Source of the DNA: Pseudomonas sp.
GTDB lineage: Bacteria > Pseudomonadota > Gammaproteobacteria > Pseudomonadales > Pseudomonadaceae
Direction: 5' to 3'
Length of the DNA: 39,749 nt
Assembly (NCBI RefSeq): GCF_030696055.1
Contig: NZ_JAUYNP010000226.1
Span: 1-39,749 of the forward strand
Shown here piece after piece: positions 9,690-35,287 of this stretch. The notes under the pieces are model-generated. The model worked only from the letters and a program-made list of their open reading frames with translations, made no database searches and was not told the DNA's origin. How positions within the stretch are numbered: the stretch's first letter is position 1; every line of letters starts with the position of its first letter. Made by a program: the position numbers and the translations under genes.

Positions 9690-9803
9690 GGTGGCCCTGC
9701 CGGTCCCCCCGCAACGATCAGCCGTGAACCCGGTCAGGCCTGGAAGGGAGCAGCCGCAGCGGTGACATTGTGTGCCGGGGTGTGGCTGGTGGGGTCGCCT
9801 CCA
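9690..9803 (+). ncRNA. ffs: 4.5S signal recognition particle RNA
   Basis: This is the small bacterial SRP RNA that binds Ffh and targets nascent membrane proteins. The sequence aligns base by base with the E. coli 4.5S RNA layout as I remember it. The features are the CCCCCCGCAACG block, the GGAA tetraloop within GGTCAGGCCTGGAAGGGAGC, AGCAGCC in the symmetric loop, GTGTGCCGGGGTGTGGCTGG, and 5' and 3' ends that pair (GGTGGCCC with GGGTCGCC, with wobble). Predicted length is ~114 nt, the usual size. The ends are inferred from that alignment, so they may be off by a few bases. Compared with E. coli, the base pair closing the GGAA tetraloop is U-G rather than C-G. Confidence 0.95.
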
Positions 9804-22321: not shown

Positions 22322-22481
22322 GTAGGGTGGGTTAGTGGCGCCGAACAGGGGTTGAGTGGCAACTGCGGTATAGGGGCGCCACGTAACCCACCAAGCGGTA
22401 ATCGCCTATCACTGCTTGGTGGGTTACGGCGCCAATGACTAAGTAGTAACAGATAGCCCGTGCCCAGGCGCCCCACCCTAC
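22322..22481. repeat. GTAGGGTGGG-ended composite palindromic element
   Basis: This 160-base element starts GTAGGGTGGG and ends CCCACCCTAC. Inside is a perfect 14-bp inverted repeat (GTAACCCACCAAGC at 22383-22396, GCTTGGTGGGTTAC at 22414-22427), flanked on both sides by GGCGCC. The left end GGTGGGTTAGTGGCGCC also pairs with GGCGCCACGTAACCCACC. It looks like two overlapping palindromic units, of a MITE/REP-like kind, between convergent genes. Shared GTAGGKTGG ends link it to elements at 31785 and 32802. Confidence 0.75.
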
Positions 22482-22527: not shown

Positions 22528-23409
22528 TTATTCGGTTACTTCAACGGCCTTGGCCTTGGCCTTGGGCGCAAAGCGCGCGGCCAGGCGCATGGAAGCGGTG
22601 ACCAGACGCTGGTAGAAGGCCGGCCACAGGCGCTGCATGGCGTCCAGGGCGTAGGCGTCCGGGCCGATCAGGATGCGCCGCTTATTCGCCAGAACGCCAT
22701 TGATAATCACCTGGGCGGCCTTCTCCGGGGTGGTGCGCAGCAACTGGTCGTTAAACTGCTGGCGCGCCTGGTCGGCATCCTGGCCGGTGACGCTGCTCAG
22801 GCTGGCGTGCATTCGCGCGGTCTTGGCGATATTGGTCCTGATCCCGCCGGGGTGCACGCAGCTGGCGGACACCCCTACGCCTGCCATATCCAGCTCCTGG
22901 CGCAAGGATTCGGTAAAGCCGCGCACGGCGAATTTGCTGGCGTTGTAGGCGCTCATGCCCGGTTGGGAAAACAGCCCGAATACGCTGGAGACGTTGATGA
23001 TATGACCGCTGCCGGCCGCCTTGATATGCGGCAGAAAGGCCTTGCTGCCGTTGACCACGCCCCAGAAGTTGATAGCCATGATCCATTCGTAGTCGGCGTA
23101 GTCGTTGCCTTCCACCGTGCCGCCCTGGGCTACGCCTGCGTTGTTGAAGATGGCGTTGACCCGGCCATGCTCGGCCACCACCTGCTCGGCCCAGGCGTGC
23201 ACGGCCTCGCGGTCGGCGACGTTGACCAGGGTTTCGCTGACCTTGACCCCGAGCTTGCGGGCTTGCGCTGCGGTTTCCGCCAGGCCCTCGGCGTTGACAT
23301 CCGCCAGCGCCAGTTGGCAACCCTGGCGGGCCAGGCCGTAGGCCAGGGCGCGGCCGATGCCGGAGCCGGCGCCGGTGATGGCCGCTACCTTGTTTTCGAA
23401 CGACTTCAT
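22528..23409 (-). CDS. Short-chain dehydrogenase/reductase
   Basis: The 293-residue classical SDR starts at the ATG at 23409, overlapping the monooxygenase stop as ATGA and preceded by AGGAGG; the ORF track extends 45 codons too far. Motifs are the cofactor-binding TGAGSGIG (~12-19), the structural NNAG (FNNAGVAQGG), the catalytic Ser in INVSSVFG and the active-site YNASK (Y and K), then HPGG. The C-terminal tail is basic and hydrophobic (RLAARFAPKAKAKAVEVTE). Co-translation with the flavin monooxygenase implies a joint pathway, e.g. interconversion of an alcohol and the ketone the monooxygenase would oxidise. That substrate logic is inference. A homologue pair sits in the same position in P. 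aeruginosa as I recall (PA1537/PA1538). Confidence 0.93.
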   Translation of the reverse strand: MKSFENKVAAITGAGSGIGRALAYGLARQGCQLALADVNAEGLAETAAQARKLGVKVSETLVNVADREAVHAWAEQVVAEHGRVNAIFNNAGVAQGGTVEGNDYADYEWIMAINFWGVVNGSKAFLPHIKAAGSGHIINVSSVFGLFSQPGMSAYNASKFAVRGFTESLRQELDMAGVGVSASCVHPGGIRTNIAKTARMHASLSSVTGQDADQARQQFNDQLLRTTPEKAAQVIINGVLANKRRILIGPDAYALDAMQRLWPAFYQRLVTASMRLAARFAPKAKAKAVEVTE

Positions 23410-30292: not shown

Positions 30293-31675
30293 CTAGATCA
30301 CCCGGGAAAAGCGCTGGCGGCTGTGTTCATTGAGGTAGTGATCGAACAGCATGCACAGCGAACGCACCAACAGGCGCCCGGCGGGGAGCACTTCGACGCC
30401 GTGCTGATCCAGCTGGATCAGGCCGTCCGCGGCCATCTGCTGCAACTGCGGCCAGGTCTCGGCGAAGTAGCTGCGGAAGTCGATGGCATAGGCCTGTTCG
30501 ATAGTGGCGAAGCTCAGCTGGAAATGGCAGATCAGCTGCTGGATCACCGCCCGGCGCAGGCGGTCGTCGGCGTTGCAGTGCAGGCCGCGCAAGGTGGCCA
30601 GCTCGCCCTTGGCCAGGCTGTTTTGATACTGGTTGAGGTCGCTGTTGTTCTGGCAGTACAGCTCGCCAATCTGGCTGATCGAGGACACTCCCAGGCCGAT
30701 CAGGTCGCAGTGGCCGTGGGTGGTGTAACCCTGGAAATTACGTTGCAGGCTGCCATCTTCCTGGGCGCTGGCCAGCTCGTCGTCGGGCAGGGCGAAGTGG
30801 TCCATGCCGATATAGCGGTAACCGGCGGCGCTCAGTTGTTCGATGCTGGCCTGCAGCATGGCCAGCTTGTCGCCGGGGCTGGGCAGCTCGCCGTTATTGA
30901 TCCGCCGCTGCGGCATAAAGCGCTCGGGCAGGTGGGCGTAGTTGAACAGCGACAGGCGATCGGGCTGCAGGGCTATGACTTCCGCGACGGTGCGGGCGAA
31001 GCGCGGCGGGGTTTGCAGCGGCAGGCCGTAGATCAGGTCGATATTCACCGAACGGAACTGCAGGGTGCGCGCGGCTTCGACTATGGCGCGGGTCTCGTCC
31101 AGGGTTTGCAGGCGGTTGACCGCCCGCTGCACGGCCGGGTCGAGGTCCTGCACGCCGAGGCTGACCCGGTTGAAGCCCAGCTCGCGCAGCAGACCCATGG
31201 TCGACCAGTCGGCCTCGCGCGGGTCGATCTCGATGCTGTAGTCGCCGGAATCGTCATCCAGCAGGTTGAAGTGCTCGCGTAGCTGGCCCATCAACTGGCG
31301 CAGTTCGTCGTGGCTGAGAAAGGTCGGGGTACCGCCGCCCAGGTGCAACTGCTCGACCCGCTGTTGCTTGTCCAGATGGCGGCCGATGATTTCCACTTCG
31401 CGCGCAAGTTTCTCCAGATAGGGCAGGGCGCGGCCGCGGTCCTTGGTGATCACCTTGTTGCAGGCGCAGTAGTAGCAAATATGCGCGCAGAACGGGATGT
31501 GCACGTACAGCGACAAGGGCCGCAGCGCTTTGCGGCTGTCGCGCAGGGCATGCAGCAGGTCGAACTGGCCGATGCCGGGATGGAACTGCACGGCAGTCGG
31601 ATAAGAGGTGTAGCGGGGGCCGGCCTGATCGTAGCGGCGGATCAGATCGGTGTCCCAGTGGATGGCGTCGAGCAT
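30293..31675 (-). CDS. hemN: Oxygen-independent coproporphyrinogen III oxidase
   Basis: HemN is the radical SAM enzyme that converts coproporphyrinogen III to protoporphyrinogen IX without oxygen. The 460-residue product starts [28 protein letters not shown], which is true HemN rather than a HemW-like protein. The radical SAM cluster motif CxxxCxxC is C63, C67 and C70 ([10 protein letters not shown]), followed by [15 protein letters not shown] (SAM binding) and a C-terminal HemN domain. Length is typical. A near-consensus Anr box lies ~70 bases upstream of the start. The gap to anr (~190 bases) contains no clear gene. Confidence 0.98.
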
Positions 31676-31751: not shown

Positions 31752-31885
31752 GGAGCTTGTCCGAGAATAGCAATTGGCTGCAAATTGTAGGTTGGTGCTG
31801 AGGAACGAAGCCCAACAACGTCAGCATGTTGGGCTTCGCGGAGCTCAGCCCAACCTACAAAAATCCACAGTCTCGGACAGGCTCC
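31752..31885. repeat. Nested palindromic elements between hemN and tauE-like gene
   Basis: Outer inverted repeats GGAGCTTGTCCGAGA (31752-31766) and TCTCGGACAGGCTCC (31871-31885) match with one mismatch. Inside is a second palindrome, TTGTAGGTTGG (31785-31795) / CCAACCTACAA (31850-31860), with an inner 11-bp arm CGAAGCCCAAC / GTTGGGCTTCG around an 11-base loop. The inner unit shares ends and inner arms with the element at 32802-32882. The right outer repeat reaches the TauE-like gene's stop codon, and the left one begins at the hemN Anr box. Confidence 0.8.
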
Positions 31886-32568
31886 TAGTGCCCCATTAGC
31901 CAATGCTGGTGCGGGCCTGGCATTGTCCATAGGCCGAACAGCATCACCAGCAGGCCGCCGGCCATGCGCACGCCCTGTTGGCGCAGCAAGGCGCTCAGGC
32001 GTTCGGCGGCCATGCCGGTGGCCAGCAGCACCGGCATGGTGCCCAGGCCGAAGGCCAGCATCAAGGCGGCGCTATTGAGGGCATTGCCCTGGCTGGCGGC
32101 CCAGAGCAAGGTGCTGTAGACCAGGCCGCAGGGCAGCCAGCCCCACAGACCGCCGAGCACCAGGGCGCGGGGCAGGCTGGTGACCGGCATAAAGCGCCGG
32201 GTCAGGGGTTGGATATGCCGCCACAGGCCACGGCCCAGGGCTTCGATGCGGGTCAGGCCGCTCCACCAGCCGGCCAGGTACAGGCCCATGGCGATCAGCA
32301 GCAGCGCGGCGACAATGCGCAGGCCCATCACCAGCGGACTATTGGCCACCGCCCAGCCGGCCAGACCGAGCAACAGGCCGGCCAGGCTATAGCTGAAGAT
32401 GCGCCCCAGGTTATAGGCCAGCAGCAGCCTAAAGCGCTGGGCGCGCTGCTCCGGCGGGATGGCCAGGGTCAGGGCGCCCATCAGGCCGCCGCACATGCCC
32501 AGGAAATGGCCGCCACCGAGCAGGCCGAGAATCAGCGCCGAGACCAGCAGCGGCAGCAGCTCAAGCAC
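31885..32568 (-). CDS. TauE/SafE-like membrane protein of the cco cluster
   Basis: The product is a 227-residue membrane protein with about six hydrophobic segments. The ORF track starts at 32688, but a GTG at 32568 with AAGGAAC upstream and an 8-base overlap with ccoS gives the expected N-terminus LELLPLLVSALILGLLGGGHFLGMCGGLMGALT. GHFLGMCGG and the later LPCGLVYSTLLWA are cysteine-containing motifs conserved in the sulfite exporter TauE/SafE relatives found next to cbb3 genes. Those are thought to act in copper handling for oxidase assembly; that role is inference. The last gene of the ccoGHIS transcription unit, it is followed by nested palindromes. Confidence 0.88.
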   Translation of the reverse strand: MLELLPLLVSALILGLLGGGHFLGMCGGLMGALTLAIPPEQRAQRFRLLLAYNLGRIFSYSLAGLLLGLAGWAVANSPLVMGLRIVAALLLIAMGLYLAGWWSGLTRIEALGRGLWRHIQPLTRRFMPVTSLPRALVLGGLWGWLPCGLVYSTLLWAASQGNALNSAALMLAFGLGTMPVLLATGMAAERLSALLRQQGVRMAGGLLVMLFGLWTMPGPHQHWLMGH

Positions 32569-32782
32569 GGGGCTGTTCCTTGGTGGGTTGTTTCGGCTCG
32601 TCGCGTTGCTGGGCTTGGTTGACCGCGGCCTTATGCCTGGGGTCTTCGTCGTCGAACAGAATGCTATGGGCCGGGCCATCCAGGTCATCGTACTGACCGC
32701 TGTCCACCGCCCAGAAGAACAGCCAGATGGCGAAGCCCACCAGGACTATGGCCACCGGAATCAGAATATAGAGCGCGGGCAT
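32561..32782 (-). CDS. ccoS: Cbb3 oxidase assembly protein CcoS
   Basis: The 73-residue protein has one N-terminal membrane helix (ALYILIPVAIVLVGFAIWLFFWAV), followed by the hallmark VDSGQYDDLDGPAHSILFDDE of CcoS/FixS and a polar tail. CcoS is required to insert haem and copper into the cbb3 catalytic subunit. The start is the ATG at 32782 with GGAG just upstream; the ORF-track start lies in the neighbouring palindromic element. It sits between ccoI and the TauE-like gene, the standard order. Confidence 0.95.
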   Translation of the reverse strand: MPALYILIPVAIVLVGFAIWLFFWAVDSGQYDDLDGPAHSILFDDEDPRHKAAVNQAQQRDEPKQPTKEQPRA

Positions 32783-32801
32783 GGGGTCTCCGGGTGGCGA
32801 T

Positions 32802-32882
32802 GTAGGTTGGGCTGAGCTTGGCGAAGCCCAACATTGCAGTCTTTGAACTTCGTTGGGCTTCACTGCGTTCAGCCCAACCTAC
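32802..32882. repeat. GTAGGTTGGGCTGA-ended palindrome between ccoI and ccoS
   Basis: This 81-base palindrome starts GTAGGTTGGGCTGAGC, ends CAGCCCAACCTAC and has inner arms GAAGCCCAAC (32823-32832) / GTTGGGCTTC (32852-32861). It fills almost the whole ccoI-ccoS gap. Its right terminus supplies the TAG stop of ccoI (minus strand, 32881-32879). The same ends and inner arms occur in the element at 31785-31860. Confidence 0.85.
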
Positions 32883-35287
32883 GGTTTGGGGCTGCGGGTC
32901 AGACGCAGGGCGTTCAGCACTACCAATAGAGAGCTGAGCGACATGCCCAATGCCGCCCAGATTGGCGTGATCCAACCTATGGCGGCGAACGGCAGCACCA
33001 GGCCATTGTACAGGCTGGCCCAGCTCAGGTTCTCGATGATGATGCGCCGCGTGCGTTGCGCCATGCTCAGGGCTTGCACCAGGCTGCTCAGGCGGTTGGA
33101 CAAGAGCACCGCATCGGCGCTGGTCTTCGCCAGGTCGGTGGCGCTGCCCATGGCCACGCTGATATCGGCGGCGGCCAGCACCGGCACATCGTTGACCCCG
33201 TCGCCGAGCATCAGCACCCGCCGGCCCTGGCTATGCAACTGTTGCAGCACGGCCAGTTTGGCGGCTGGGGTGAGGCCGCCGCGGGCGTCGGCTATGCCCA
33301 GCTGGCGCGCCACCTCGGCGACCATGGGCGAGCTGTCGCCGGACAGCAGCATAATGTGCCAATGCCGAACCTTGGCCGCTTCGATCAGCTGCGCTGCGTC
33401 ATCCCGCACGCGGTCATCCAGGACGAGCCAGGCCAGGGGCCCTTGTTCATCGCCCAGCAGCAGCCATTGGCCGTGCTCGCCCGTAATGGCTGGGGGCTGT
33501 TGACCGCTCAAAGCGCAGACAAAATCCGCCTGGCCGATACGCAGCAGGCGCGCGCCGACCCGGCCCTGCAGGCCCAGGCCCGGATAGCTGTCGACCTGAT
33601 CGGCAGCCTGGCTGGCTTGGCCAAAAGCGCGGGCAATGGGGTGTTCGGAGCGGTTCTCCAGGGCGGCGGCCAGGGCCAGGCAGCTGCCTGAGTCCAGTTC
33701 GCGCAGCGGCTGGATGCTGCTCAGGCTCAGGCGGCCTTCAGTCAGGGTGCCGGTCTTGTCGACGACCAGGGTGTCGATCTGGTTCAAGCCTTCCAGCACA
33801 TGGCCGCGGGTCAGCAGCAGGCCGAGCCTGTGCAAGGATCCGGTGGCGGCGGTCAGGGCGGTGGGCGTGGCCAGGGCCAGGGCGCAGGGGCAGGTGGCGA
33901 CCAGCAGGGCCAGCACTATCCAGAAGGCGCGCGACGGATCGAGTTGCCACCAGATCAGGCCTACCACGGCGGCCGCCAGCAGCACGCTCAGCAGAAACCA
34001 CTGCGCCACCCGATCGGCCAGCACCGCCAGGCGCGGTTTGTCGCTCTGCGCGCGCTCCAGCAAGCGCACTATGGCCGATAGCCGGGTGGCATCGCCCAGG
34101 GCCTGCACCTCGACGCACAGCGGCCCTTCGACGTTGAGGGTGCCGGCGGTCACTGGATCTCCGACGCCGCGCGCCTGCGGCAGGTATTCGCCAGTCAGCA
34201 GCGCTTCGTCGATGCTCGACTGGCCCTGCAGGATGCGCCCGTCGGCCGGTAGCAGGGCGCCTGGCGGCACCAAAACCTGGTCGCCGATCCGCAGCTCGCT
34301 AAGCAGGATACGTTGGCTCTGGCCGTCGGCGTCCAGGCGCAGGCAGGAGGCGGGCAGCAACTTGACCAGCTGCGCGGTGGCCGCTGCCGTACGTTCGCGG
34401 GCGCGGCGCTCCAGATAGCGGCCAGCCAGCAGGAACAGGGCGAACATGCCCACCGCATCGAAATACAGCTCGCCCTGGCCGGTCACCGTCGACCAGATAC
34501 CGGCGACGTAGGCCCCGCCTATGGCCAGGGACACCGACACATCCATAGTCAGATGACGGGTGCGCAGGTCGCGCAAGGCGCCACGAAAGAACTGGCCGCA
34601 GCAGTAGAAGACGATCGGGGTGGTGAGAAACAGGCTGACCCAGCGCAGGATCTGGTCCAGCTCAGGGGATAGGTCGACGTTGAATTCCGGCCAGGTGGCC
34701 ATGCTCGCCATCATCACCTGCATCCATAGCATGCCGGCCACACCCAGCTCGCGCATGGCGCGGCGGTTTTCCCGCTGCAGCTGGGCGGCGGCGGCGTCGG
34801 CCTGCCAGGGATGGCCGGCGTAGCCGATCTTGCGCAGCGCCTTGAGCACATCGCTGAGCGGAATCTGGCTGTCGGCCCAACGCACCTGCAAGCGGTGGTT
34901 GGACAGGTTGAGCGTGGCTTCGGCGATACCCGGCAGCTCGCGCAGGTGTTTCTCGATCAGCCAGCCGCAGGCGGCGCAGCTGATGCCTTCAATCAACAGG
35001 CAGGTTTCGCTGAGCTCCCCGTGGCGTTCGACAAAGGGTTGCTGCACATCGCTGCGGTCGTACAGCGCCAGTTCATCCGGCAGGGCTTGCGGCAGGCTGT
35101 GGGGATTGTTCGCGTTTTCGCTGCGGTGCTGGTAGTAGGGCTCCAGGCCGCCGGCGACTATGGCCTCGGCCACCGCCTGGCAGCCGGGGCAGCACAGCTC
35201 GCGGCTTGCCCCCAGAACATGCGCCTGGAAGCGGCTGCCGGGGGGCACCGGCAGGCCGCAGTGGTAGCAAGGGGTCGGGCTGGCCAT
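32879..35287 (-). CDS. ccoI: Copper-exporting P-type ATPase CcoI (FixI)
   Basis: The P1B-type copper ATPase is needed to supply copper for cbb3 oxidase maturation. The 802-residue product has, in order, an N-terminal cysteine-rich segment (CYHCG, then CCPGC, the CcoI-specific metal-binding region) and a heavy-metal-associated domain with GISCAACG (C104, C107). Membrane helices follow, then the TGE actuator motif (LLTGEY, ~364-369), the ion-path CPC at 466-468 (VATCPCALALATPT), the phosphorylation site DKTGTLTEG (D510) and GDGVNDVPVLAAADISVAMG. It lies within ccoGHIS, eight bases after ccoH. The stop codon lies in the terminus of a palindromic repeat, so the last residues may have been altered by that insertion. 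Confidence 0.97.
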   Translation of the reverse strand: MASPTPCYHCGLPVPPGSRFQAHVLGASRELCCPGCQAVAEAIVAGGLEPYYQHRSENANNPHSLPQALPDELALYDRSDVQQPFVERHGELSETCLLIEGISCAACGWLIEKHLRELPGIAEATLNLSNHRLQVRWADSQIPLSDVLKALRKIGYAGHPWQADAAAAQLQRENRRAMRELGVAGMLWMQVMMASMATWPEFNVDLSPELDQILRWVSLFLTTPIVFYCCGQFFRGALRDLRTRHLTMDVSVSLAIGGAYVAGIWSTVTGQGELYFDAVGMFALFLLAGRYLERRARERTAAATAQLVKLLPASCLRLDADGQSQRILLSELRIGDQVLVPPGALLPADGRILQGQSSIDEALLTGEYLPQARGVGDPVTAGTLNVEGPLCVEVQALGDATRLSAIVRLLERAQSDKPRLAVLADRVAQWFLLSVLLAAAVVGLIWWQLDPSRAFWIVLALLVATCPCALALATPTALTAATGSLHRLGLLLTRGHVLEGLNQIDTLVVDKTGTLTEGRLSLSSIQPLRELDSGSCLALAAALENRSEHPIARAFGQASQAADQVDSYPGLGLQGRVGARLLRIGQADFVCALSGQQPPAITGEHGQWLLLGDEQGPLAWLVLDDRVRDDAAQLIEAAKVRHWHIMLLSGDSSPMVAEVARQLGIADARGGLTPAAKLAVLQQLHSQGRRVLMLGDGVNDVPVLAAADISVAMGSATDLAKTSADAVLLSNRLSSLVQALSMAQRTRRIIIENLSWASLYNGLVLPFAAIGWITPIWAALGMSLSSLLVVLNALRLTRSPKP

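Follow-up and report, generated by a model that had tools for sequence, protein, structure and literature searches.

The window, by which we mean the whole 39,749-nucleotide stretch of Pseudomonas sp. DNA that was analysed, contains on its minus strand the gene of a copper-type P-ATPase of 802 amino acids, ccoI (32879..35287), a gene for a TauE/SafE-like membrane protein (Pfam DsbD_2; 31885..32577, start codon provisional) and a hemN-like gene (30293..31675). A GTAG-type REPIN of 81 bp (32802..32882), consisting of the two mutually inverted REPs GTAGGTTGGGCTGAGC...GAAGCCCAAC, lies between ccoI and ccoS, and a second REPIN of 72 bp (31787..31858) is found inside a 134-bp MITE-like element (31752..31885) upstream of the hemN-like gene; none of the three elements is assigned a strand. 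Both palindromes had been recognised in the first-pass annotation, in which the second was placed at 31785-31860, two bases too far at each end. The 32802..32882 REPIN is predicted to fold as RNA with -49.6 kcal/mol (z -8.0), and a search of Rfam gave no match at either palindromic element. Elsewhere in the window, the bacterial small SRP RNA (Rfam RF00169) is located at 9698-9794 on the plus strand, and GTAGGGTGGGTT, at 22322-22333 on the plus strand, is possibly the terminus of another GTAG REP family. Judged by ccoI identity, the nearest named relatives include P. peli, P. anguilliseptica, P. aestuarii and P. borbori.

The REP end GTAGGTTGGGCT occurs 86 times as an exact match in the 4.17-Mb genome and its reversed control only twice, and it is therefore not a chance sequence. 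Nearly all of the 86 exact copies are outside called genes. Variants with another first base in the REP head (HTAG) number 8, against the 86; a stop is provided by one of these variants. GTAG is the outer terminus of an imperfect palindrome in the REPs of the window, and inverted head-out pairs are present in both window elements and in many other copies. The same genome encodes a RAYT (G000:C29:13189-13710, locus L048:1444-1965), which matches the NCBIfam equivalog NF047646 with an E value of 1.9e-58 and is flanked by REPs of the window type, one of which supplies the TAG stop of the RAYT gene itself. A REPIN also sits directly upstream of this gene. The GTAG head, the imperfect palindrome, the head-out pairs and the location mostly downstream of genes are shared with the GTAG REP superfamily described by Di Nocera (2013; PMC3733652). 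The window REP GTAGGTTGGGCTGAGCTTGGCGAAGCCCAAC is nearly identical to the REP of Coxiella burnetii, GTAGGTTGGGCTGAGCTTGCGAAGCCCAAC (Nunvar 2010; PMC2817692), but is found in a Pseudomonas, where it has a RAYT of its own and a MITE derivative. The REPINs of P. fluorescens SBW25 (Bertels and Rainey 2011; PMC3116915) differ in REP sequence but are similarly organised, the inverted REP pair being the replicative unit and the RAYT acting in trans.

Contact of the REPs with stop codons was counted genome-wide in loci taken around all listed element copies, the genes being called with a purpose-built codon-score caller instead of the standard annotator. When MITE-borne ends and doubled heads were excluded, 12 of the 108 remaining REP ends coincided exactly with, and supplied, the TAG stop of a called gene, while one gene continued to the second-frame TGA and another ended at the adjacent base (12:1:1). 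Random non-coding positions would give 0.31 exact cases, and REPs placed on GTAG outside gene interiors, that is in non-coding DNA or at a stop, would give 5.3 (P 0.007); the P values for REPs are indicative only, since the ends are not independent, one REPIN (L082) serving two genes and one REP being the stop of the RAYT gene. The L082 REPIN (L082/L195, G000:C277 ~23219-23310) fills the gap between the convergent rmuC and a gene of 297 amino acids, and supplies TAG to both. The contact between elements and stops, suggested from the window in the first-pass annotation, is thus confirmed by the genome-wide tabulation as real and non-random.

The TAG stop of ccoI (32879..32881, minus strand), the complement of the letters at these positions, lies within the GTAGG head of a REP, and was correctly traced to the terminus of the element in the first-pass annotation. 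An unchanged ccoI end in a relative free of the element had been proposed there as an argument against targeting of gene ends or selection, and this is largely what was found: in L095, ccoI is equally long and stops at the same position, there with TAA, and a possibly decayed REP lies beside the stop. In REP-free relatives PdxJ ends with RG* at the same place, the stop being TAG (in two), TAA or TGA, and HutH has the same length, with the stop TGA. The L085 hydrolase gene ends with GCG TAG already in G008 and G012, both REP-free, and the TetR-like L020 gene has the same length in G013, with the stop TAA. One residue has been gained in the product of the L015 gene, and the end of RmuC is shifted. 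In most testable cases, then, the old stop is where the REP head lies, and the elements mostly occupy existing stops and rarely create new C-termini, instead of truncating or extending the proteins. The TAG itself may be new in HutH, L020 and ccoI, since the relatives use TGA or TAA. In G012 the end of the L020 gene carries another REP family, GTAGCCCGGATG, which is known from P. mendocina (PMC2817692).

In different species of Pseudomonas the TAG of ccoI is the terminus of different palindromes, among them those of the GTAGGTTGG, GTAGGGTGGATC and GTAGGAGCGAGC types, and many Pseudomonas have no repeat at the end of ccoI. Among 470 stops in ccoI loci, an inverted partner including the stop was present at 10 of 66 TAG, 0 of 285 TGA and 0 of 119 TAA codons, and all ten belonged to ccoI. 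The distribution of the GAGCGAGC group on the ccoI tree fits one origin, that of the GTTGG group needs three changes and that of GGTGGATC four. Compared in this way, different Pseudomonas lineages take their ccoI stop from at least three REP families that are unrelated to each other.

The MITE-like element has terminal inverted repeats of 15 bp, GGAGCCTGTCCGAGA, at 31752..31766 (left, plus strand) and 31871..31885 (right, minus strand). Its usual flanks are CTA and TAG; in the window copy the left one is CAT and the right one the regular TAG. At least 11 copies, with no ORF, are present in the genome, and the spacing of the paired GGAGCYTGTCCGAGA ends is 134 bp in most of them, with variants of 96, 123 and 177 bp. 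Seven other full 134-bp copies, one of them inverted, are identical to the window copy at 123-127 of the 134 positions. Of the 11 copies, 10 had CTA or TTA (TTA twice) as the left flank and 10 had TAG as the right one; a TA target-site duplication was seen at either end of 10 copies, the window copy lacking the left TA. A 4-bp CTAG duplication was also considered and was rejected in favour of TA: copies whose left flank is TTA nevertheless have C-TAG on the right, and the duplication is therefore TA and the preferred target CTAG. An outer GGAGC-type repeat reaching the stop of the TauE-like gene had been described in the first-pass annotation; it does reach the stop, with which it shares a G, but is not incidental nesting, because the 134-bp composite is repeated elsewhere as a whole, with its length unchanged. 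Independent nested insertions at 31752-31885 were rejected on the same ground.

MITEs of the IS630/Tc1 type are short and ORF-free and have terminal inverted repeats, a TA duplication and a preference for CTAG. The window MITE is like them in all these respects and differs in carrying a REPIN as cargo and in having no partner transposase among the sequences searched: no match to a DDE_3 transposase gene was obtained in its own genome, and the DDE_3 loci of relatives lacked its terminal repeats. An IS630 partner was sought in these two sets and not found, and the assignment of the MITE as IS630-like is therefore weak. On plasmids the MITE gave only partial REP-like matches. In G083, another species, a similar pair of ends lies approximately 60 bp apart with no REPIN between (L176, G083:C72:37682). 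This short pair is possibly an ancestral empty MITE and, as a single case, suggests that the MITE may have acquired its REPIN later.

Five of the 11 MITE copies share one base with the TAG stop of a neighbouring gene. In the TauE-like gene the stop (31885..31887, minus strand) takes its TA from the target, and its G is the last base of the element. CTAG was found 126 times in genic and 153 times in non-genic sequence of the same loci, in which genic GTAG numbered 862; 16 of the 153 non-genic CTAG strand-sites were stops, approximately 21% per palindromic site. MITEs thus often abut TAG stops because CTAG is rare in genes and common as NNC-TAG stops. Targeting of CTAG predicts 2.3 of 11 MITEs at stops, and the 5 observed are not significantly more (P 0.06), so that the contact of the MITE with stops follows largely from its target. 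Most MITE-free relatives have the same C-terminus of the TauE-like protein, WLMGH*, and L095, the relative with the most similar ccoI, has CAC TAG at the same place and no MITE; the stop of this gene therefore predates the element.

We consider it probable, at about 0.8, that two kinds of mobile repeat are involved, GTAG-REPs and REPINs at gene 3' ends and a MITE which inserts at CTAG and has engulfed a REPIN. The first-pass annotation had regarded the recurrent contact with stops as one phenomenon of targeting or selection, and enrichment was indeed observed for both elements; the two contacts nevertheless have two causes, the choice of CTAG by the MITE and the GTAG terminus of the REP, because the MITE at 31752-31885 is a different object from the REPIN at 32802-32882. 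The REPs and REPINs would be non-autonomous, presumably mobilised in trans by the RAYT of the same genome, and are found preferentially at gene 3' ends. There the GTAG head often coincides with the position of the old stop and then acts as the TAG stop, leaving the end of the protein unchanged. The 134-bp MITE-like element would have engulfed a REPIN and inserts, by means of a presumed transposase, at TA within CTAG.

The preference of the REPs for stops would arise either from the choice of target or from selection. REPs may insert without preference, selection purging the insertions which lengthen or truncate a product, and the TAG of the head rescuing insertions into the last codons in one frame of three. 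Other REP ends are indeed found at many distances downstream of stops, L015 has gained one residue and the end of RmuC differs; however, hardly any ends fall in the other frames (12:1:1), although the second would end just four residues later, and the stop is unmoved in most tested genes, whereas rescue in the last codons would shift it. This explanation is rather unlikely. Alternatively, insertion may pick a pre-existing (G)TAG, the head overlying the target letters like the left target site of IS200/IS605. In favour of this, GCG TAG in relatives of the L085 hydrolase and TAG in two PdxJ relatives are present where the REP is absent. The base 5' of GTAG points the same way, being a pyrimidine at 90 of 97 non-supplying ends and 8 of 12 supplying ends, and a purine at 7 of 97 and 4 of 12, respectively, as if the coding sequence ran up to the REP head where the REP supplies the stop. 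Against this, the relatives of HutH and ccoI have TGA or TAA, a GTAG target alone predicts 5.3 cases and not 12, and the TnpAREP enzymes which have been studied cut at CT or CA and use GTAG as a guide (PMC8266576), so that we regard it as unlikely.

The bolder proposal, that insertion by the L048 RAYT recognises existing (G)TAG stops, the GTAG head being a gene-end homing device and ends such as that of ccoI being reused by successive unrelated families, is speculative and appears quite improbable. The hairpins might also be kept for an action at the gene end, such as protection of the mRNA 3' end, termination or tuning of ccoI-ccoS translation, several REP families having been recruited repeatedly. 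The turnover of families at the ccoI stop, the strong predicted folds and the reported down-regulation of translation by REPs within 15 nt of stops (PMC12306157) would agree with such a role, but many Pseudomonas are without a repeat at the end of ccoI, and we consider it unlikely.

That the termini of GTAG REPs often provide the TAG stops of flanking ORFs is already known, having been published in 2013 (PMC3733652), in a paper that contains no empty-site comparison and, in the text consulted, no cross-species turnover at one gene end. What the present analysis adds is a CTAG-targeting MITE with a REPIN as cargo, the explanation of its stop contact by CTAG, a quantitative test of the contact, an examination of empty sites and the finding that REP families have replaced one another at the stop of ccoI. 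A habit of REPs earlier mentioned just in passing is now given numbers and comparisons with empty sites, and the presence of a CTAG-targeting MITE at gene ends is given a simple explanation in terms of sequence. The ccoI-ccoS junction, where unrelated REP families have repeatedly become the stop, offers a natural system for studying why REPs gather at gene ends.
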